Below, piece after piece: positions 26,891-63,664 of a DNA stretch of 64,000 nucleotides. The stretch is from Myxococcales bacterium (GTDB lineage: Bacteria > Myxococcota > Myxococcia > Myxococcales > Myxococcaceae). Position 1 is the stretch's first letter. Every line of letters begins with the position of its first letter. The position numbers and the translations under genes were made by a program. The stretch is taken from positions 62,001 to 126,000 of the forward strand of contig JACPVI010000023.1 in the NCBI GenBank assembly GCA_016191815.1, read 5' to 3'. The notes beneath the pieces are model-generated. The model was not told the DNA's origin. It ran no database searches and worked only from the letters and a program-made list of their open reading frames with translations.

Positions 26891-27439
26891 CTAAGGCGCT
26901 CGAGCCGGGGCGGTCGCGGCGAGCTCCCGCACCCTTTTCTCTAGGAATGAGCGGCTGCGCTCGCCGCTGGCGGCGGCCACCACCACGCCCTCGGAGTCGA
27001 TGAAGGCCACCGAGGGCACCTGGTTCACGCCCAGCGGCCCGAGCACCTCCCCTTCGGCGAACGCAATCTGCATCTCGAGGCCCATCCGGTCTGCCGCGTC
27101 GCGGACCTCCTTCTCGTCGGGCTCGAGGGAAACCGCCACGAACCTCGCCGCGGCCTGGTGCTCGCGGCGAACGGCGTCCAGCTCGGGCAACTCCCGAGCA
27201 CACACCCTTCACCCAGGCACCCAGAAGGCGAGCACCGCTGGCCGGCCCTTCAGCTCCGCGCGGTCGAGCACCTTCCCGCCCAGCGTCACCACCCGGAAAT
27301 CGCGCGGCAGCGGAAGGTTCGGCTTGTCGTAGTACTCGCAGCCGCCGGCCACCAGCGCCGCAATCGCGGTCAGCACAGCGCCAGCTGCTCTGTGCTCGCG
27401 TCGAGGCGCGGCTCGCCTTGCCAGGCAAACGGGTGCCAT
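26891..27439 (-). CDS. TlpA/ResA-like thioredoxin lipoprotein with in-frame TGA (probable selenocysteine, UxxC)
   Basis: The frame from the ATG at 27437-27439 to the TAG at 26891 is open except for one TGA (27209-27211, codon 77). That TGA sits where thioredoxin-fold proteins carry the first active-site Cys: FWVPG-TGA-RVC-ARELPEL gives U77-x-x-C80. The rest is a normal TlpA-like domain: LKGRPAVLAFW before the site, FVAVSLEPDEKEV after it, cis-Pro142 in VNQVPSVAFID. The N-terminus is a basic and hydrophobic signal ending in VAGGC, a plausible lipobox. A SECIS-type hairpin follows the TGA. I read a 182-residue membrane-anchored periplasmic thiol oxidoreductase. The alternatives are a nonsense-mutated pseudogene or a sequencing error. 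The start codon is uncertain because no strong ribosome-binding site is visible. Confidence 0.75.
27181..27211 (-). promoter_or_regulatory. Bacterial SECIS-like element and UGA recoding site
   Basis: Minus strand: TGA at 27211-27209, nine bases, then a perfect 7-bp stem GCUCGGG (27199-27193) and CCCGAGC (27187-27181) closing a 5-nt loop AGUUG (27192-27188). The loop starts 17 bases after the UGA and has a G in its second position. Known bacterial SECIS elements are small hairpins just 3' of the UGA, inside the coding sequence, with the loop at about this distance and a G among its first two bases; SelB binds them. The fit is very good, but it is structural inference from one sequence. Confidence 0.72.
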
Positions 27440-27619
27440 GCACCCACAGTTAGCCGCCGGCGCTCGGGGACGCAAGTGAACGACCGCTCCCTCAGCCACG
27501 CCCCGGCGCAGACTCGGCCGCGGCGGAGGGTGATCGCTCGGATTGAGCCCGGCCCTCGAGTCCGCTCGGGCCAAGCGGAGTCAAAGCCGGGTCGACCGCC
27601 ATCGGATTTGACCGGAGCC

Positions 27620-27682: not shown

Positions 27683-28123
27683 TCAAGGAGTCACGCGGAA
27701 CTCGATGCGCACTTCCTCCGGGAGCGCGTTTCCTTGCGCGTCCCGGAGCGCCACCCTCAGCACCAGCACGAGGAGCCGCGGGCCGGGCTCCAGGATCCGT
27801 GCCGCCGGCCTCGCCTGCACGCCGTACGGCTGGTCCGGATCGTCCGCACGCTCCGGGCCGGGAGGCGGCGCGGCGAGGACCAGAAGCACCTCCTGCTCGT
27901 CCTCGAAGAGAGCGATACCTCCCGGCAGGCTTTCAGGCTCCATCGCCTCGGAGAAGACGACCTCCATTGGCTCGCCGCTCCGAAGTTCCGCGGCACCACC
28001 GTCGCCCGCCGCCGGCCGGGTAGCGAGGATCCTAGGTGGCTGCTCGTCCACAGACAGCAAGTGCGCCCTCCCCGGCTCGAGACAGCCGGCAGCGGCCAAC
28101 GCCAGCGCGGCGAGGCGCCTCAT
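27683..28123 (-). CDS. Lipoprotein with Ig-like (Big_5-type) domain
   Basis: 146 residues from the ATG at 28121-28123; a longer upstream frame lies inside the cytochrome gene. MRRLAALALAAAGC is a lipoprotein signal with Cys ~14. The mature part has the pattern of bacterial Ig-like domains (PPRILATRPAAGDGGAAEL, MEVVFSEAMEPESL, ALRDAQGNALPEEVRIEF). The start overlaps the cytochrome stop by 4 bp, so both are translated together. A surface structural partner of the cytochrome is plausible but unproven. Confidence 0.75.
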   Translation of the reverse strand: MRRLAALALAAAGCLEPGRAHLLSVDEQPPRILATRPAAGDGGAAELRSGEPMEVVFSEAMEPESLPGGIALFEDEQEVLLVLAAPPPGPERADDPDQPYGVQARPAARILEPGPRLLVLVLRVALRDAQGNALPEEVRIEFRVTP

Positions 28124-29280
28124 CGGCAGCCTCTGCGTTCGAGGTCGCCGGGCTGGTGACACTTGAGGCAGGCCCGGTCGTTCGAACGCGCCATCGCCCC
28201 GCAGGACTGCGCGAACCCGCTCGGGTGCGGGTTGAGCCCGCGCCCCCCGGGCTTGGCCGCGACCGAGTGGCAACGGGTGCACGACTCCTCACGATGGCAC
28301 GAGGCGCATTCGCCGATTTCTCTGGATGCGAACACCGCATGGTGCCTGGGGCCAGGCAGCTCGACCCATTCGGCGTAGCTCGGATGCACCTTGAGGTTCG
28401 TCGGCCGCAGTGAGCGGTCCGCGTCGGGGCCTACCCCTGCACGCTCATGACATGCGGCGCAGAACGATTGCGCGCGGTGGCAAGACTCGCAGCGGCTGCT
28501 CCCAGCCCTCGCCTGCACCGGGTGCACGGTGAGGTAGTCGTTGGGGTGGACTCGCAAGGGTTTGCGAAGCGCGTCGTGGCAGGACTGGCAGTCCCGTTCG
28601 GCGTGGCACTCGCCACACCAGGCCGGCGCGCGCGAGGCCTGAGCGCCGTGCGAAAGCTCGTACTGCGCACCATGGTCCAACCCCAGCGGATCGCCAGCGC
28701 CGGGCCGCAAGACGCCGCTCCCGAGGCGGACCAACAGCCGCCCGGACGGCTCAGCGAGGTGGCAGGTCGCACACCTCGATGGAGCCCGCAGGCCGTCGTG
28801 ACACGCGAGGCAGGTCCTCATCTCGGGGAGCTGGGCCCTGGTGGCCAGCCCGACGACGCCCACGTCGCCGTGGCAGATGCTGCATTCAATCTGGCGGTCG
28901 GTGTGCGCACGGTGATCGAACCGGAGGTTCGGGATCGGCATCACCACTGCCGCCGGGCGCCTCCGGGCGCTCTCGTCGAATCCGGGGTGGCACTGCCGGC
29001 ACGGCACCCCTCGCTCGCCGGCGGCGATCTCATGGCACTGGTCGCACCCGGCATGGGGTCGCTCGGCAGTACCCGGCAACAGCCGGTCGGAGGAGCGGCG
29101 GCTGGTCCTGGCGGCTGCGTGGCACGCGTCGCAACCAATACCCCTGGCGGCGTGGCGGGAGTGTTCGAACGCGAGCGGCAGCTCCTGCGGCGGATAGACC
29201 ACGGCGCTCCGCTCCCCGGCCGTGGAGGCCGATGCCAAAGTTGCGGCAAGCACCGCCGCGCTCGTCCTCCACCCGCACAT
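28120..29280 (-). CDS. Periplasmic or surface 13-heme cytochrome c
   Basis: 386 residues with a signal peptide (MCGWRTSAAVLAATLASAST). There are 13 CxxCH heme-attachment motifs: CDACH, CDQCH, CRQCH, CSICH, CLACH, CATCH, CGECH, CQSCH, CESCH, CAACH, CASCH, CTRCH, CLKCH. Many additional His residues can serve as distal ligands (HSRHA, HRAH, HPSYAEW). This density is typical of electron-transfer cytochromes of metal-reducing delta-proteobacteria. Its ATG directly abuts the stop of the barrel gene. It needs the Ccm system encoded at the end of the window. Confidence 0.92.
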   Translation of the reverse strand: MCGWRTSAAVLAATLASASTAGERSAVVYPPQELPLAFEHSRHAARGIGCDACHAAARTSRRSSDRLLPGTAERPHAGCDQCHEIAAGERGVPCRQCHPGFDESARRRPAAVVMPIPNLRFDHRAHTDRQIECSICHGDVGVVGLATRAQLPEMRTCLACHDGLRAPSRCATCHLAEPSGRLLVRLGSGVLRPGAGDPLGLDHGAQYELSHGAQASRAPAWCGECHAERDCQSCHDALRKPLRVHPNDYLTVHPVQARAGSSRCESCHRAQSFCAACHERAGVGPDADRSLRPTNLKVHPSYAEWVELPGPRHHAVFASREIGECASCHREESCTRCHSVAAKPGGRGLNPHPSGFAQSCGAMARSNDRACLKCHQPGDLERRGCR

Positions 29281-30657
29281 CTACAGCCTCGCCTCGAGAT
29301 CGAAGAGAAGGAACGCCCTCAGCTCCGCGCGGGTCAGCTCGTTCGCGTTCGCCTCGAGGATGAGCGAGGCGCGGGCCGGAGGGGCGAGCGAACGGGTCGC
29401 CCAAACCTGGGCGCCTATGAAGCGGCCGCGAAGGAGCGGGTTGAGCCGATCGGCCAGCTCGGCCGCCGACAGGCGAGCGTCCACCGAGCTGCCGCCCGGA
29501 TGCGAGTAGCCCGCGGTGAGGTCGAGCCAGAGCTGGCGGCCACGTCCCCCCTCGAAGGAAACCTCGGCGGAGTAGCGAAGCGTCCCTCGACGCCCGGTGG
29601 CGCCGGTCCTGGCGCCGGCGGCCACCTCCGGGCCCAGGGAGCCGAGCGACGCGAAGAGCAGGCCCTCCCGGTTCAGCTCGAGGTGGTACGCGCGCGCCGA
29701 CACCTCCGAGTGCAGCCGCACCTCGCCGATTGACCACTCCGCCCGGAGCCTCGCCTCGTCCCTGGGAGCGGTGGCGAAGTAGAGGAAGACCGAGTCCGCG
29801 GAAAAGACCGGGCGGATCCTCGCGGCCTCCGCGGCGGCCGAAAAGGCATCTCCGTCGAAGCGGGCGGAGAGACGCAGGTTGGCAAGGCGCTGCGCGAAGA
29901 GATCGTGCTCGAGCGCTCCCCACAGCCGGATCCGATGGAGCGAGTAGCCCAGCTGTGCGGCGGCCCGGTCCAGATTCACCTTCCCCGCGAGGTAGGCGCG
30001 CCGGACCTCGATCGAGCCGGAGAAGCCCGAGGCGCGATCGAGGAACACCCTCGCGCCCCAAACGGGCTCGAAGTCGTCCAGCTCCGGGGAGGCGCCCGGG
30101 ACCAGGGCCACCAGGCGGCGGGCGTCGCTCTCCCGGGTGCCGTCGGGCTGGTAGGCCGGCGATCCGAGGAGGCTTGCGCCTTTCACCCACAGCCCCCCGA
30201 AGGCCTCCGCCCCGACGCCCGAGCCGAGCAGGTGCCGGAGCTTCACTCCGTCGAAGGCCATGAAGTCGGTGAAGTCGATCTGGAGCTGCCGGCCGAGGCG
30301 CACCTCGGTCCTCGGACCGCGGTAGCTCAGGTTGGCGTAGAGGAGATCCGCCTCCTCGGAGCGAACCCCGTCGAGCGCCGCCGCATCGCCGCGCGGGAGC
30401 CCGAGGTCCGCGAGCACCCGCAACGACGACTCGAAGCCGATCGGCTGCCCGGGGACGAGCTCGAAGACGTCGAGGCCCAACTGCTGCACCAGCCTGCGCC
30501 GAGGGAGAAGTACCGGTCGGGACGGGTCGCTCCCTCGATAGGCGCGGAGCTGGTACGCCTGGGCCTCGGTGCGCGCCTGGAGGTAGTAGGCCGCGCCGGT
30601 TCCGGCCGCCGGCATAAGACACGCCGCGATGGCGACGACCGGTGCGAAGGCTTTCAA
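29281..30657 (-). CDS. Outer-membrane beta-barrel protein, partner of the multiheme cytochrome
   Basis: 458 residues if translation begins at the TTG at 30655-30657, which starts a signal peptide (KAFAPVVAIAACLMPAAGTG). The frame is open ~50 codons further, but that part has no protein-like composition and overlaps the divergent promoter region. The mature protein alternates short polar and aromatic strands (ADLLYANLSYRGPRTEVRLGR, FGGLWVKGASL, LRYSAEVSFEG) and ends in a beta strand (RAFLLFDLEARL), as in porins. Directly followed by the 13-heme cytochrome, it resembles porin-cytochrome electron conduits. The start is uncertain. Confidence 0.7.
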   Translation of the reverse strand: MKAFAPVVAIAACLMPAAGTGAAYYLQARTEAQAYQLRAYRGSDPSRPVLLPRRRLVQQLGLDVFELVPGQPIGFESSLRVLADLGLPRGDAAALDGVRSEEADLLYANLSYRGPRTEVRLGRQLQIDFTDFMAFDGVKLRHLLGSGVGAEAFGGLWVKGASLLGSPAYQPDGTRESDARRLVALVPGASPELDDFEPVWGARVFLDRASGFSGSIEVRRAYLAGKVNLDRAAAQLGYSLHRIRLWGALEHDLFAQRLANLRLSARFDGDAFSAAAEAARIRPVFSADSVFLYFATAPRDEARLRAEWSIGEVRLHSEVSARAYHLELNREGLLFASLGSLGPEVAAGARTGATGRRGTLRYSAEVSFEGGRGRQLWLDLTAGYSHPGGSSVDARLSAAELADRLNPLLRGRFIGAQVWATRSLAPPARASLILEANANELTRAELRAFLLFDLEARL

Positions 30658-30805
30658 CCGCGCGCAGTATAGCGGCGCTGGAGCCACGGGAGCGGGCGAC
30701 TCGAGCCGCTCCGGCGAAAAGCGAGCTGCTGGTGCCGTGGGCGCCGAGCGCGAACTTTCCGAATCTGCGTCCCGTGCGGGCGGCGCGCTTGACGCACGCC
30801 GGGGC

Positions 30806-31942
30806 GTGGCCAAGAGTCGCGAAGCCTTGGAGACACGCCCGCCGGCGATCCGATCGCCCTATTCGCTCGCGCTGGTGCTGTGCCTGGTCACGCTCGTCCT
30901 CTTCATCTTCGTCGGCGGGCCGCTCCAGGCGCTGAACGTCGCCTTCGGGTTGTGGTTCTCCGAGGTGTTCATCTTCTTCGGGGCACCGTGGGTCGCCCTT
31001 CGCCTGAGCGGCCGCGATCCGGTCCGGTACGCGGGGCTTCCCTTCTCCGGCTGGCAGGCTGCCGCCTTCGGATTCCTCCTCGGGGTCGCCAATTTCTTCG
31101 CGCTGGTGGTGCCGCTGCAGTACCTCGCGCTCCTGGTCACGCCCGACTGGCTCGAGGAGCTGGTGGATCCCAGCCGGATCTTCCGCGACGCCACTCCGGT
31201 GGAGCTGTTCTTCATCGTCGCCGGAGTCGGGGTGACCGCCCCCTTGTGCGAGGAGTACTTCTTCCGGGGAGTCTTCCAGCAGGGGCTCGCGTCGCGGCGG
31301 CCGCCGGCGTCGGCGGTGGTGCTCACCGCGCTCATCTTCAGCGCCTTTCACCTCGACCCGGTGGGCTTCCTCGCGCGCTTCGAGCTTGGACTCTTGTTCG
31401 GGTTCCTCTTCCTGCGCAGCGGCTCCCTCTGGCCCGGGGTGATGGCGCACGCGGCGAACAACCTCGTCTCCACCGCGCTCTACTTCGGCTTCGAGGAGTC
31501 GATCGCTTCGGGCGAGGAGACAGACCCGGTCGGAGTGCTGCTCGTCTCGGGCCTGGGCCTGCTTGCGCTCTCCGGGCTATTGAGGACGCTGCGCGCGAGG
31601 CCGCTGTTGCTCGCTGTGGCCGAGCCTGCCCGGGACATTCCGGCGGGGCTGCCCGCCAGCCGAGGCGCGGTGATCTGGCCGTGGGTCGCCGGCGCCGCCA
31701 CCTCGATCGCGCTCTTGGTCGCGGTGGACTGGCGCGGGATCAGGCTCGCGCAGATTGACGCGCGGAATCCGCTGCCGCGGCTCGGCCTGCGCCCAACCGA
31801 GGCCGACAAGGCACAGCGAGAGCAGCTGCGCGAGCTAAGGCGAAAAGCACGCGCAGGCGGAGTGCCGCTCGAGCAGTACGCGGAAGCCCGCCGGGCACTG
31901 AGGGAGGCCGCCAACGGCAAAGGAGGCGCCGGCCGGGACTGA
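30806..31942 (+). CDS. CPBP family intramembrane metalloprotease (Rce1/AbiI-like)
   Basis: 378 residues from the GTG at 30806 (start uncertain; the frame is open upstream). About eight transmembrane segments. The three CPBP motifs are intact: Glu149-Glu150-x3-Arg154 (CEEYFFRG), FxxxH with His182 (FSAFHLDP) and HxxxN with His215/Asn219 (AHAANN). A charged cytosolic C-terminus of ~70 residues follows the last TM (ADKAQREQLRELRRKAR). Family members cleave membrane substrates such as prenylated or bacteriocin-related proteins; the substrate here is unknown. Divergent from the barrel gene. Confidence 0.85.
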   Translation: MAKSREALETRPPAIRSPYSLALVLCLVTLVLFIFVGGPLQALNVAFGLWFSEVFIFFGAPWVALRLSGRDPVRYAGLPFSGWQAAAFGFLLGVANFFALVVPLQYLALLVTPDWLEELVDPSRIFRDATPVELFFIVAGVGVTAPLCEEYFFRGVFQQGLASRRPPASAVVLTALIFSAFHLDPVGFLARFELGLLFGFLFLRSGSLWPGVMAHAANNLVSTALYFGFEESIASGEETDPVGVLLVSGLGLLALSGLLRTLRARPLLLAVAEPARDIPAGLPASRGAVIWPWVAGAATSIALLVAVDWRGIRLAQIDARNPLPRLGLRPTEADKAQREQLRELRRKARAGGVPLEQYAEARRALREAANGKGGAGRD

Positions 31943-57566: not shown

Positions 57567-57745
57567 TGCTCTCCTCTCCCGCGTGACGCTGCAGGGCCGG
57601 TGCCAGCGCTCGCTCCGCTCGGGTCCACCGGGTCCGAGAGGGCAACGGCTTTCCCATCCGAGGAACGCCCTTTCCCTCCCACGGCGCGAGGGGAAATGTG
57701 GTAGGTCGGCGGGCGGTTTTCGCCTCGACTGCGCGTCGCGCCCCC

Positions 57746-58438
57746 ATGCCTGCCACCGCCGGAGCTGTCTCCACCGCTGCGCAGCCTGCCGCCGCTTCCC
57801 TCGCGCTGGACATCCGCGACGTGAGCAAGCGCTTTGGTCCGAGGTGGGCGCTGGCCCGGCTGAGCTACACGCTCCCCTGCGGCCTGTCGCTTTTGCTCAC
57901 CGGCCACAACGGCTCGGGGAAGACGACCCTCTTGCGAATGCTGGCCACCGCCATCGCGCCGAGCGCCGGGAAGCTCCTCGTCCTCGGGCGGGACGCGGTG
58001 GCGGAACGCGAGGAGGTGCGCCGCGACATCGGCCTGCTCTCCCACTCGAGCTTCCTCTACGAGGACCTGACCGCGGAGCAGAACCTGGTGGTGCTGGCGC
58101 GGCTGTTGGGCATCGCCTCGCCCAAGGACGTGGCCGGACAGCTCCTCACCCGGGTCGGGCTCACCGCCCGGTCGAACAACCCGGTGCGTCAATTCTCCGC
58201 CGGCATGCGAAAGCGCCTGGCCATCGCACGGCTGTTGCTCAAATCGCCAAGGGTGGCGCTGCTCGACGAGCCGTTCAGCGAGCTGGATCCGGCCGGCATC
58301 GCCGAGGTGGAGAAGCTGATCGTCACCTTGCGAGAGGCCGGCACCACGGTGGTGCTGGCCACTCATCTCATCGAGCAGGGCCGGGCGCTCACCGAGACGC
58401 GGCTCCACCTCACCGAGGGAAGGGGGATGGGCGAATGA
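57746..58438 (+). CDS. ccmA: Heme exporter ATP-binding protein CcmA
   Basis: 230 residues from the ATG at 57746; a GTG at 57698 with GAGGGG close upstream is an alternative start. Walker A is GHNGSGKTT, the ABC signature reads FSAGMRKRLAIARLL and Walker B is VALLDEPFSELD, with His in LATH. CcmA with CcmB powers release of holo-CcmE in System I cytochrome c maturation. Its stop overlaps the ccmB ATG by 4 bp. Confidence 0.88.
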   Translation: MPATAGAVSTAAQPAAASLALDIRDVSKRFGPRWALARLSYTLPCGLSLLLTGHNGSGKTTLLRMLATAIAPSAGKLLVLGRDAVAEREEVRRDIGLLSHSSFLYEDLTAEQNLVVLARLLGIASPKDVAGQLLTRVGLTARSNNPVRQFSAGMRKRLAIARLLLKSPRVALLDEPFSELDPAGIAEVEKLIVTLREAGTTVVLATHLIEQGRALTETRLHLTEGRGMGE

Positions 58439-59139
58439 GCGCCTCCTTCGCCATACGGCCCATCGGGCTTTTGCGCGCCGCCGGCATCATCCTCGGCAAG
58501 GACCTGCTCATCGAGTGGCGCACCCGCGCGCGCATCAACGCGCTCGTCTTCTTCGCGGTCGCCACCCTGCTCCTGTTCTCCTTCGCGCTCGGCCCGGACG
58601 TTGACCTGCTCCGGCAGAACGCCGCCGGGTACATGTGGCTGGGGATCCTCTTCGCCAGCGTGCTCTCCCTGAGCGAGTCCTTCCGCGTGGAGGCCGAGAA
58701 CGCCACCTTGGAGGGCCTAAAGCTCGTCCCCACCGACCCCCGGGCGGTGTTCCTCGGCAAGGCCTGCGGCAACGCGGTGATGATCTTCGCCCTCTGCCTC
58801 ATCCTGCTCCCGGTGATGGTGGCCATCTACGACGTCTCCATCGCCGAGGGGCTCCCCAAGCTCTCGCTCGTGCTGGCGATCGGCTGCCTGGCCATCAGCG
58901 CGCCGGGCACGATCTTCGCGGCCATCTCGGCCAACGCGCGGGCGCGGGACGTTCTGCTCCCGCTGTTGTTGTTCCCGATGCTCGTGCCTGCCCTGCTCTC
59001 GGTGGTGAAAGCCACCGCCCTGGTGCTCCAGGGAGACCTCCAGGACTCGCTCCGCTCCTGGCTCGGCCTTTTGTGCTGCTTCAGCGTGATCTACTGGGCG
59101 CTCGGGTTTGCCGTCTTCCCGAAGGTGATCGAGGACTGA
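58435..59139 (+). CDS. ccmB: Heme exporter membrane subunit CcmB
   Basis: 234 residues from the ATG at 58435 (the frame is open much further upstream inside ccmA, which is a shadow). Six TM helices. Recognisable pieces are GKDLLIEWRTRARINALVFF, the ENATLEGLKLVP loop and LLLFPMLVPALLS. Membrane partner of CcmA. Followed 3 bp later by ccmC. Confidence 0.9.
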   Translation: MSASFAIRPIGLLRAAGIILGKDLLIEWRTRARINALVFFAVATLLLFSFALGPDVDLLRQNAAGYMWLGILFASVLSLSESFRVEAENATLEGLKLVPTDPRAVFLGKACGNAVMIFALCLILLPVMVAIYDVSIAEGLPKLSLVLAIGCLAISAPGTIFAAISANARARDVLLPLLLFPMLVPALLSVVKATALVLQGDLQDSLRSWLGLLCCFSVIYWALGFAVFPKVIED

Positions 59140-59142
59140 CCG

Positions 59143-59907
59143 ATGCTGTACGTGACGATCGCACTCTTCGCGCTGGCGGTCGGGCTGTTTGCGCTGCACC
59201 TCTTCTGGGCGAAGGCGCGCGGCTGGGTTTGGAAAGCGGTGGCGGTGCTTGGAGGAGCCATGCTCCCGGCGGGCGCTTACTTCGGCCTCTCCTGGGCACC
59301 CTCCGAGCAGGACATGGGAGAGGTCTACCGGATCATCTTCGTCCACGTGCCGATGGTCTGGGCGGCGCTTTTGGCGCTGGTGGTCAACTTCGTGGCCTCC
59401 GCGGCCTACTTGTTCAAGCGGAGCTGGACCTCGGATTCCCTGGGAGAGGCGGGGGCGGAGGTGGGCGTCGTCTTCGGAGTGGTGGGCCTGTTGCTCGGCT
59501 CGATCTGGGGCCGGCCCACCTGGGGCGTGTGGTGGGACTGGGACCCGCGGCTGACCACCACCGCGATCATGCTCGTCCTCTACACGGGCTACCTGGCGCT
59601 CCGGAAGTTCGTGGACGACCCAGAGAAGCGCGCCACCTGGTCCGCGGTGGTGGGCGTCATCGCCGCGGTGGACCTGCCCATCGTCTGGTTCTCGGTGAGG
59701 TGGTGGAAGAGCATCCACCAGGTGCAGTCGAACCCGAAGACCATCGACCGGTCGATGTTCGTGGTGCTGGTCTTCAACGTGGTCGCCTTCATGTGCGCGC
59801 TCTTCGTCTACCTCTGGCACCGCTTCCTGATCGCGAAGGCGGCGCGGGCGAGGGAGGTGGCGCTGCCCTCGGCGCTTCCTCCCGCCGGGCCGCAGGAGGC
59901 CGCATGA
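59143..59907 (+). CDS. ccmC: Heme handling protein CcmC
   Basis: 254 residues with six TM helices. The Trp-rich WWD motif WGVWWDWDPRLTTT (residues ~127-140) binds heme at the periplasmic face, and the flanking His (VHVPMVW) is present. CcmC loads heme on CcmE. The C-terminus carries an Ala/Pro tail. The stop overlaps the ccmD ATG by 4 bp. Confidence 0.93.
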   Translation: MLYVTIALFALAVGLFALHLFWAKARGWVWKAVAVLGGAMLPAGAYFGLSWAPSEQDMGEVYRIIFVHVPMVWAALLALVVNFVASAAYLFKRSWTSDSLGEAGAEVGVVFGVVGLLLGSIWGRPTWGVWWDWDPRLTTTAIMLVLYTGYLALRKFVDDPEKRATWSAVVGVIAAVDLPIVWFSVRWWKSIHQVQSNPKTIDRSMFVVLVFNVVAFMCALFVYLWHRFLIAKAARAREVALPSALPPAGPQEAA

Positions 59908-60074
59908 GCTTCCTCACCCACGCGATGCTGGCGCAGGTCGGCCAGGGCCGGATCGAAGGCGGCTGGGAATACATCTGGGCCGCCTACGGCCTGACCTGGC
60001 TTTCCCTGGCGCTGTACGGGGTTTCTCTTTGGCTCCGGCGCAGGTCCGGCGAGCCACCCAAGGAGCTGTCATGA
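59904..60074 (+). CDS. ccmD: CcmD-like small membrane protein
   Basis: 56 residues. One TM helix (WEYIWAAYGLTWLSLALYGVSLWL, shown here only as positions ~22-45) followed by a basic cytosolic end (RRRSG). CcmD proteins have little sequence conservation; size, topology and exact position between ccmC and ccmE make the call. Overlaps both neighbours by 4 bp. Confidence 0.82.
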   Translation: MSFLTHAMLAQVGQGRIEGGWEYIWAAYGLTWLSLALYGVSLWLRRRSGEPPKELS

Positions 60075-60541
60075 CACCTGGCGCGCGAAACCGCTTCATC
60101 CTCGCCGTCGCCTTGCTGGTCGCCGCGGGCGCGCTGGCCTTCATCGCCTTCGGGGACATCGGAAAGAACCTCGTCTACTACTGGAGCCCGAGCGAGATGC
60201 TGGCCCAGGGCGAGCGCGCGTTCGGCCCCACCATCCGGCTGGGCGGGGTGGTGCAGCCCGGCAGCGTCGAGTGGAGCGCGCAGAAGACGAGCGTGAAGTT
60301 CCGGGTGGCCGACAGCCACAAGTCCGAGTCGGCCTCGGTGGTGGTGCACTGCGAGCAGACCCCGCCCCAGATGTTCCGCGAGGGCATCGGGGTGGTGGTG
60401 GAGGGCACCTTGGACAAGTCGCAGGTGTTCAAGTCGAAGAGGCTGATGGTGAACCACTCCAACGAGTACCGGCCTCCCAAGGAAGGGGAGAAGCCCGCCG
60501 ATTGGAAGGGCTCGGTCTCCGAGGCGGCGGAGCAAAAGTGA
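60071..60541 (+). CDS. ccmE: Heme chaperone CcmE
   Basis: 156 residues from the ATG at 60071. An N-terminal TM anchor (FILAVALLVAAGALAFIAFG) is followed by an OB-fold domain (IRLGGVVQPGSVEW, GVVVEGTLDKSQVFKSKRLM). The heme-attachment His lies in NHSNEYRP, the equivalent of HDENYxP. It carries heme covalently to CcmF. Its stop overlaps the ccmF GTG. Confidence 0.92.
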   Translation: MTPGARNRFILAVALLVAAGALAFIAFGDIGKNLVYYWSPSEMLAQGERAFGPTIRLGGVVQPGSVEWSAQKTSVKFRVADSHKSESASVVVHCEQTPPQMFREGIGVVVEGTLDKSQVFKSKRLMVNHSNEYRPPKEGEKPADWKGSVSEAAEQK

Positions 60542-62574
60542 GCTCGCTGATCGGCTACGGCCTGGTGCTGGGCGGCCTGGGCTGCGGCATCTTCGGCGCG
60601 GTGGTGGGGCTGTGGGGAGGGCTCGCCCGCCGCGAAGCCGCGCTCATCTGGGTGCAGCGCGCGGTCTACGGCTTCGCGCTCTGCATGATCGGCTCCAACC
60701 TGGCGATGATCGCCGCCCTGCTCTCCCACGACTTCTCGGTGAAGTACGTGGCGCAGGTGGGCAGCCGATCGACGCCGGTGCTGTTCACCGTGGTGTCGCT
60801 CTGGTCGGCGCTCGAGGGCTCCATCCTCTTCTGGGGAGGCATCCTCGGGGTGTACCTGCTGGCGTTCGCGCTCTTGCACCGCCGCGCTCCGGCGAGGAGC
60901 CTCCAGCTCGCCATGGGGGTGATGTGCGCGGTGGCGGTCTTCTTCGCCTTCCTCATCGCCGGGCCGGCGAACCCCTGGGCGCACATTCCCAACCCGCTGC
61001 CGGACGGGCCGGGGCCGAACCCGCTGCTTCAGAATCACCCGCTGATGATCGTCCACCCGCCGATGCTCTACCTTGGCTATGTGGGCATGACGGTGCCCTT
61101 CGGGATCGCCGCCGGGGCGCTGATCGCCGGGGAGATGGGCGAGTCCTGGACCGCACCCTTGCGCAAGTGGACGCTGGCGCCCTGGCTGTTCCTCACCCTG
61201 GGGGTCATCCTCGGCTCCTGGTGGGCCTACGCGGTGCTCGGCTGGGGCGGCTACTGGGCGTGGGATCCGGTGGAGAACGCCTCGTTCTTGCCCTGGCTCA
61301 CCGCCACCGCCTTCATGCACTCCACCATGGTCCTCGAGCGCCGGCGGATGCTGAAGCTGTGGACGCTGGCGCTGGCGCTGGGGAGCTTCGTGCTCACCGT
61401 GATCGGCACCTTCATGACCCGGAGCGGCGTCTTCAACTCGGTGCACTCCTTCACGCAGTCGGACATCGGGCCCACCTTCCTCGTCTTCATCGGGGTGACC
61501 TTCCTCTTCTCCATCGTCCTCCTCGTCGCGCGCGGGCATCTGCTCTTGGCCGAGAGCCAGCTCGACTCGATCTTCTCGAGGGAGGGGGCGATCCTGTTCC
61601 TCAACCTCCTCCTGGTGGCGTTGACCTTCACGGTGTTCACCGGGACCACCTTCCCGCTGTTCGTCGAGGCCCTGCTGAACAAACGGATGAGCGTGGGCGA
61701 GCCGTACTTCAACCGTTTTGCGGTTCCGGGAGGGTTCCTGCTGCTGGCGCTCTTGGGCGCCTGCCCGCTGTTGCCCTGGGGATCGGCGGACCCGCGGAAG
61801 GTCCTGCGCCAGGTGGTGGCTCCCGGCGCGGCCGCGGTGGGGACGGTGGCGCTCTGCGCGATCGCGGGGCTGCGCGGTTTCTGGCCGCTCGCCATCTTCG
61901 GGGTCGCCGCATTCGCCGGAGTGGTCACCCTGGCCGAGCTGTTCCTCCCCGCTCGCCAGCGCATCGCCCACCACGGCGAGGGCGCGCTCACCGCCCTGGC
62001 CCAGAGCGTCTCTCGCGCATCGCGCCGGTTCGGCGGCTACGTGGTCCACGTCGGGGTGATCGTGATCGTCGTCGCCATTGCCGCCTCCTCCGCGTACAAG
62101 ATCCACGCGAGCGGCACGGTGAAGGCTGGCCAGGCCCTCGAGGTCGGCGACTATCAGGTACGCTTCGACGGGCTCTCCAGCGGCTCTGAGCCGCACCGGA
62201 GCTGGACGGCGGCCAACGTCACCATCCTCGGACCCGGGGGCGAGTCGCACTCGCTCGCCGGGAAGGACGGTCCGCGGATGAACTTCTACGAGCGCAGCAC
62301 CGATCCGGTCGGCTCGCCGGCGGTGAAGCTCGAGCTGGCGAGAGATGTCTACGTGTCGCTCTTGGCCTTCGACCCCCAGGCGAATACGGCGAGCTTCAAC
62401 GCCTGGGTGTTCCCGCTGGTCGGGTGGATCTGGTACGCGATCCCCATCCTGGTGCTCGGCTCGGCGATCGCGCTCTGGCCGCAGCGGAGGAGGGAGGTGG
62501 CGGCTGAGGCGGCGGCTCCGCCTGGCGCCGGGGCGCCTCCGGTGAGCCCGGGCCTTTCGGCTGGTGCCCCATGA
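60538..62574 (+). CDS. ccmF: Cytochrome c heme lyase subunit CcmF
   Basis: 678 residues from the GTG at 60538. About fifteen TM helices. The WWD-type motif [18 protein letters not shown] (residues ~236-253) and several conserved His ([16 protein letters not shown]) are present. CcmF receives heme from CcmE and joins it to CxxCH of apocytochromes with CcmH. The C-terminal Ala/Pro tail is slightly long. The CcmG ATG overlaps the stop. Confidence 0.94.
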
Positions 62575-63155
62575 GTGATGTTGCCCGGCCAGCTCCACCG
62601 CGGCGCACCCTGCTCTGGCTGTTCGCGGCCGGGGCGTGCCTGTTCGTGCTCGGCGTGCTCGCCGTCTGGTGGAAGGCCTTCGGGACGGATCCGCACCGCG
62701 TCCCGTTCGAGCTGGAGGGCCAGCCGGCCCCGACCTTCACCCTGCGCCGGCTGGACAACGGCGAGCCGGTCTCCTTCGACAAGCTCAAGGGCAACCCGCT
62801 GGTGCTGAATTTCTGGGCGACCTGGTGCGGGCCGTGCCGTCAGGAGCACCCGGTGCTGGAGTGGGCCGCCGGCCGCTTCGGCGACAAGGTGCAGTTCTAC
62901 GGCGTAGTGTTCGAGGATTCGGAGGAAAACGCGCGGAGGTTCATCGCGGAGCACGGGGCGCGGTATCCCCAGCTCATCGATCCCACCTCGACCATGGCGG
63001 TGGACTACGGGGTGACCGGCGTGCCGGAGACCTACTTCATCGACCGGGATGGGATCATTCGCGGGAAGGTGGCGCAGCCCATCGACCCGCAGACCATGAC
63101 CGAGCGGATTCGCGAGCTAGTCGCGCCTCCCGCGCCTGATGGAGGTTCGCCATGA
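62571..63155 (+). CDS. ccmG: Thiol-disulfide oxidoreductase CcmG (DsbE/ResA-like)
   Basis: 194 residues. An N-terminal TM anchor ([20 protein letters not shown]) precedes a thioredoxin domain. The active site is [15 protein letters not shown] with two normal Cys; cis-Pro is in [12 protein letters not shown]. It keeps apocytochrome or CcmH thiols reduced. It contrasts with the TGA-containing relative at 26891-27439. Overlaps ccmF and ccmH by 4 bp each. Confidence 0.92.
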
Positions 63156-63664
63156 CTCTCGCTCCTCTCTTGGCGGCGATCCTGGCGGTGACCGGCTCGG
63201 GGCTGGCGGAGCCGCCTGTCATCGCCGAACCCCTGGCGCCGCAGCGGCTGGCCGGAGAACCGCTGGATCCGGCGCGCGAGGCGCGGGTCCAGGCGCTCGC
63301 CAAGGTGCTCCGCTGCCCGGTGTGCCAGGGGCTGTCGATCGCCGACTCGCCCTCCTCGATGGCGCGGGCGCAGCTCGAGAAGGTCCGCGAGCTGGTGCGC
63401 GAGGGAAAGACGGACCAGGAGATCTTCGCCTACTTCGAGGCGCGCTACGGCGAGTTCGCCCTTCTGGAGCCGAAGGCCCAGGGCATCAACCTTTTGGCCT
63501 GGGTCGGGCCCATGGCGCTTTTGCTCTTCGGCTTCTTCGTCATCCTCAGCCAGGTGCGACGCCGGGGCTCGGCGGTGTCCCCGGCCCAGGGCGGGCCGCC
63601 TGCCGCCGCGCCACCCGCCGAAGACGAGTACCTAAGGCAGGTCCGCTCGGAGATTGAGCGATGA
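63152..63664 (+). CDS. ccmH: Cytochrome c maturation protein CcmH
   Basis: 170 residues. Signal peptide at the N-terminus, then the invariant LRCPVCQGLSIADSPSSMA motif (redox Cys pair), a three-helix domain and a C-terminal TM (LLAWVGPMALLLFGFFVILS). CcmH reduces the CxxCH cysteines for heme ligation. The cytosolic end is Ala/Pro-rich. Overlaps the next gene by 4 bp. Confidence 0.94.
   Translation: MTLAPLLAAILAVTGSGLAEPPVIAEPLAPQRLAGEPLDPAREARVQALAKVLRCPVCQGLSIADSPSSMARAQLEKVRELVREGKTDQEIFAYFEARYGEFALLEPKAQGINLLAWVGPMALLLFGFFVILSQVRRRGSAVSPAQGGPPAAAPPAEDEYLRQVRSEIER

Follow-up and report, generated by a model that had tools for sequence, protein, structure and literature searches.

At this locus a single in-frame TGA cuts a short gene in two at the active site of a thioredoxin-like domain. 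Does it mark the end of a damaged or bipartite gene, or is it read as selenocysteine (Sec)? The window analyzed here is a 64,000-nt stretch (positions 62001-126000 of contig C22) from a Myxococcales bacterium whose draft genome (89 contigs) totals 6.77 Mb.

A thioredoxin-fold gene with one in-frame TGA

On the minus strand of the window, a frame extends from ATG to TAG with the TGA triplet as its sole interruption (Table 1). The residues on either side read FWVPG-U-RVCARELP. When the sequence was re-read, the frame, the TGA, the UxxC context and the cis-Pro were all as given in a preliminary description of this DNA. Ordinary ORF calling yields two truncated pieces, one spanning 27209-27574 and the other, started by GTG, 26891-27205; such a split had also been anticipated. 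Hence the gene would be split or missed by ordinary gene callers, even though cultured bacteria carry it, a Myxococcus xanthus strain among them.

Taken as a whole, the comparisons described below lead us to regard the locus as a real selenoprotein gene, with a probability of about 0.93. We propose that UGA codon 77 is read as Sec because a hairpin starting 9 nt downstream would recruit SelB together with Sec-tRNA(Sec).

Table 1. Features of the predicted selenoprotein gene (positions in the window).
Feature	Position	Strand	Basis
Selenoprotein gene (predicted), 182-aa ResA/TlpA-type thioredoxin-fold protein, Sec77	26891..27439	(-)	Translation with TGA = U; Pfam; AlphaFold2 model
TAG stop	26891-26893	(-)	Translation
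Sec (UGA) codon 77, aligned with ResA Cys74	27209..27211	(-)	Profile alignment with ResA; orthologue codons
Resolving cysteine Cys80 (UxxC)	27200..27202	(-)	Invariant in alignment
Glu83, aligned with ResA Glu80	27191..27193	(-)	Nearly invariant; profile alignment
cis-Pro loop proline Pro142	27014..27016	(-)	Invariant in alignment A1
Predicted signal peptide ending in lipobox Cys34	27338..27439	(-)	Helix 17-31 in model; Cys34 conservation
bSECIS hairpin, 7-bp stem GCUCGGG/CCCGAGC, loop AGUUG	27181..27199	(-)	Sequence, fold, covariation

A conserved hairpin downstream from the TGA

The perfect 7-bp stem with its AGUUG loop, starting 9 nt past the TGA, was found exactly as first described. It leaves a gap of 16 nt between the TGA and the loop, and it forms the core of the minimum-free-energy fold of a 42-nt segment (-22.4 kcal/mol; z -4.25), a value that no shuffled sequence reached. 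Replacing the codons of the same peptide by synonymous ones according to local codon usage produced the stem in the same register in 0.7% of 20,000 recodings; an equally low free energy was obtained in 1.4% of 3,000 synonymous recodings. The hairpin exceeds what chance would give: it is rare among synonymous recodings, and TGA and hairpin recur together in 15 genera. Published rules for bacterial SECIS elements specify a loop of 3-9 nt, a stem of 4-16 bp, a G within the first two loop positions, a spacing of 16-37 nt and a minimum free energy of -7.5 or lower (PMC13188914). All features of the window hairpin fall within these bounds, with the 16-nt spacing lying at the lower limit of the model.

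Alignment of 21 distinct TGA-containing sequences allowed the stem to be followed across the family. RNAalifold independently predicted exactly the 7-bp stem, whose positions are paired in 97.3% of cells, and changes on both sides of a pair were seen in 7 cells, compared to 1.4 in shuffles. Two stem pairs vary in this manner (C-G to U-A or G-C, and U-A to C-G), and sliding the stem partner abolishes the pairing signal. The loop is also constrained, with the consensus AGUU(G/U) in the TGA genes, 16 nt past the UGA. Among the matches listed, all 28 TGA orthologues use TTG or TTT as the loop codon; in the genes of the window, TTG accounts for 10% of Leu codons and TTT for 6% of Phe codons. Orthologues with a Cys codon at the active site give a different picture. 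In three of them that were folded, the corresponding segment folds no better than shuffles; in the fourth it reads CGT GAG GTG CCC. As judged from these alignments, the TGA genes preserve the hairpin through compensatory changes, and in the Cys genes it is weak or lost.

Searched across the whole genome, the hairpin core GGGAGTTKCCC gave 12 matches; the window gene is the only one of them in which a TGA precedes the loop by 16 nt, and thus no second gene having this hairpin with this spacing was found. An Rfam search of the region returned a chance match only. One TGA orthologue (L072, genome G117) is a natural variant in which a G-to-A change both replaces the Glu following the UxxC motif by Lys and opens the hairpin's top pair.

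Sec machinery and the distribution of TGA and Cys orthologues

All four genes for which the preliminary description had recommended a search are present in the same genome: selA (4.7e-171), selB (1.8e-99), selD (2.4e-108) and a tRNA-Sec gene scoring 77.9 bits, which ARAGORN reads as tRNA-SeC with anticodon UCA. The selD gene itself (contig C6, 22128-23057, minus strand) contains an in-frame TGA in the context CAGUAAKI and is a predicted selenoprotein gene; a strong stem can be drawn by eye downstream from this TGA. On another contig (C17, 18935-19917), four tRNA-Ser genes and one tRNA-Arg gene lie within about 1 kb, the first tRNA-Ser exceeding the Rfam gathering score for tRNA-Sec, a false match.

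Orthologues were sought in 60 relatives and then in 195 Myxococcota genomes. The latter contain at least 32 loci with E-values between 2e-68 and 2e-44, a clear gap setting them apart from all following matches (1.5e-29 or weaker); on the strength of this gap, the 32 loci were taken as orthologues. Among the matches listed, the active-site codon is TGA in 28, spanning 15 genera of four families, and a Cys codon in four (genomes G021, G024, G005 and G070), so that both TGA and Cys do stand at this site in other species, the two possibilities that had been singled out for checking. Some carriers of the TGA are single-contig genomes, and some are cultured strains with names. Myxococcus xanthus AM003, Myxococcus sp. 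CA023 and RHSTA-1-4, Corallococcus sicarius and an Archangium metagenome-assembled genome are among the named carriers. The Cys orthologues have one continuous frame across the active site. Within the searches made, the orthologous group was confined to Myxococcota; phage records searched for the protein gave no match, and no additional orthologue was found in the class of G070, represented by two genomes. In the pairs compared, dN was lower than dS both before and after the TGA, and clearly lower in close pairs, which indicates at the sequence level that purifying selection goes on beyond the TGA.

The selA gene was found in 150 of the 195 genomes. Among the matches listed, it accompanies every TGA orthologue (28/28) and one of the four Cys orthologues (Fisher's exact p = 0.0008, a value that is indicative since the genomes are related and not independent). 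The Cys genomes lacking a selA match are G021, G024 and G070. The fourth, G005, has selA, making the correspondence with the Sec machinery imperfect; at this locus (L033/L077) the hairpin is lost and selA kept, an instance of Sec replaced by Cys with the machinery retained. In the tree, Cys rows are scattered among Sec rows and do not form a single group, and supported branches force at least two changes. The tree suits a repeated change from Sec to Cys, other histories being also compatible. With this set of orthologues, the Sec-to-Cys switch can be set against the disappearance of the Sec machinery.

A lone in-frame stop in a short gene from a draft assembly of many contigs is what a pseudogene would display, or else a sequencing error by which TGC or TGT was misread. 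Such an origin is refuted, as far as the assemblies tell, by the recurrence of the same TGA in 28 of them, across genera and in single-contig genomes and cultured strains, and the low dN/dS beyond the TGA also speaks against it; we regard it as practically negligible. Scarcely more credible is that the TGA simply ends a short product and that another polypeptide begins with the GTG at 27205, with no recoding involved. Both pieces are indeed open frames, but the division would place a break inside the thioredoxin active site, with residues 77 and 80 on either side of it, while the Cys orthologues encode the two parts as one, and a covarying hairpin would be left without a purpose. Recoding of the UGA as Sec accordingly remains our reading of the locus. 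The Sec-containing thiol oxidoreductase originally suggested is supported by the machinery, by the TGA and Cys orthologues and by the hairpin, with Sec insertion itself a prediction from sequence.

Predicted fold, export and activity

The translated protein matches two Pfam families, Redoxin (PF08534; 2.9e-11, 43.8 bits against a gathering score of 26.6) and AhpC-TSA (PF00578; 4.1e-11, 43.3 bits against 26). An AlphaFold2 model, made from the window protein and 12 loci, has a mean pLDDT of 88.3 and displays an N-terminal helix followed by a thioredoxin fold. The best PDB matches, both by sequence and by fold, are ResA proteins. The profile alignment matches Sec77 with ResA Cys74, Cys80 with Cys77 and Glu83 with Glu80 (second of each pair in ResA numbering).

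The lipobox Cys34 is kept in 16 of the 17 orthologue rows of alignment A1, and several orthologues have classical lipoboxes (LASGC, LVAGC, LLGAC). Together with the hydrophobic helix of the model, the conserved Cys suggests a lipoprotein. The earlier assignment to this class is thus supported by the Cys kept in nearly all orthologues, although the own box of the window protein, VAGGC, is atypical at position -3 and not classical.

In the scheme that we envisage, the product would be exported and probably anchored in the membrane as a lipoprotein, and Sec77 would take the place of the attacking cysteine in a ResA/TlpA-type thioredoxin fold. Cys80 would then resolve the selenenylsulfide, with Glu83 predicted to occupy the position of the active-site glutamate of ResA. 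The protein would most likely act as an extracytoplasmic thiol-disulfide reductase and be re-reduced by a transporter of the CcdA/DsbD type. Granted that it is a selenoprotein, we consider the reductase role more probable than not. The genome encodes a single member of the DsbD transmembrane family (DsbD_TM; contig C74), which is a possible electron donor. None of the neighboring genes is conserved in a way that points to a substrate or an electron donor.

Relation to known selenoproteins

That thioredoxin-like UxxC proteins form a recognized class of selenoproteins, as the preliminary description stated, agrees with published catalogs, in which UxxC members of PF00578 and PF08534 already appear (PMC9312934, PMC13188914). 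The relatives listed there are a Prx-like thiol:disulfide oxidoreductase (PF00578, UxxC/UxxU) and a Redoxin family protein (PF08534, UxxC); WP_010940744.1 and HEU0032618.1 stand as representatives of these nearest families. The window protein resembles them in Pfam families, in the UxxC motif, in having Cys homologues and in the kind of predictive evidence; judging from the descriptions, it is set apart by its putative lipobox and by the motif W-x-P-x-U-x-x-C-x-R-E-(L/F)-P.

ResA of Bacillus (PDB 4nmu, 1st9, 1su9) shares with the window protein the fold (with 4nmu_D, a target TM-score of 0.87), the position of the nucleophile, the equivalent of Glu80, the cis-Pro and an extracytoplasmic location, the last predicted for the window protein. 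However, identity is about 22-26%, and whereas Cys-x-x-Cys follows Trp in ResA, Sec follows Gly, Arg, Leu or Thr in the window family, in which Pro75 is invariant (alignment A1). The NCBIfam ResA model (NF002854) gives 49.5 bits, below its cut-off of 170. Another model, NF041054 (WAxxUGC_long, ResA-like WAxxUGC motif-containing protein), also describes a ResA-like selenoprotein, but one that is longer and has a UGC motif instead of UxxC; here the score is 27.5 bits, short of the cut-off of 300. The VPGUxxT family of thioredoxin-like proteins (NF041383) has the letters VPGU up to Sec in common with the window protein but continues as UxxT, and gives no match at E <= 1. No NCBIfam model was reached by the window protein, and nothing relevant on selenoproteins in myxobacteria was retrieved from the literature searched.

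Announced at the outset as a probable new selenoprotein, the protein thus appears to be an undescribed family or member inside the established class of UxxC redoxin/TlpA-like selenoproteins; novelty is limited to that level, and the surprise is moderate because the class is known. The gene adds a predicted extracytoplasmic selenoprotein to a model bacterial group.

Genomic neighborhood and alternative roles

A multihaem cytochrome of the Cytochrome_C7 family is encoded next door (28120-29280). Four syntenic relatives keep the flanking PlsB gene, and three of these also keep the genes for a CAAX-type protease and a subtilase; the block containing the cytochrome gene (27683-30813) has no match in any of the four. 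Because no match to the block was found in these relatives, we rejected the idea that the gene is an operon partner of the multihaem cytochrome. In Myxococcus and Corallococcus, the selenoprotein gene lies in other surroundings. Further along the window, on the plus strand, is an apparent ccmABC-E-FGH cytochrome c maturation operon (57698-63664) with a CxxC CcmG at 62571-63155, the names being read from translations.

These data bear on two narrower roles for a selenoprotein. It could serve specifically as an apocytochrome c reductase, in the manner of ResA or CcmG, acting with the neighboring multihaem cytochrome. The ResA nature of the nearest solved relatives, the match of Glu83 to ResA Glu80 and the adjoining Cytochrome_C7 gene would all suit this role, which we nonetheless judge unlikely given that the apparent ccm operon supplies a CcmG of its own and that the syntenic relatives retain the flanking genes with the cytochrome block unmatched. 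Slightly less likely still is a Prx-like peroxidase: the top Pfam families are Redoxin and AhpC-TSA, some Sec proteins of which are peroxidases, but the UxxC motif with cis-Pro and Glu83 differs from the peroxiredoxin motif PxxxTxxU (PMC13188914), and the nearest solved structures are oxidoreductases of the ResA type. The apparent ccm operon with its CcmG and the unmatched cytochrome block lead us to favor a general extracytoplasmic thiol-disulfide reductase.

More speculatively, myxobacteria might possess a selenium-dependent pathway of extracytoplasmic thiol reduction apart from Ccm/CcmG, with the Sec lipoprotein at its center and substrates of its own, in which Cys would have replaced Sec repeatedly, mostly upon loss of selA. 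We hold this scheme to be doubtful; if it were true, predation, development and envelope repair would be examples of contexts for the substrates.

The block at 27683-30813 (minus strand) encodes, besides the cytochrome, a 510-aa protein and a small protein, both without a Pfam match, and the genes on either side of it keep their order in relatives. The block has the look of a lineage-specific insertion, and possibly represents a porin-cytochrome system.
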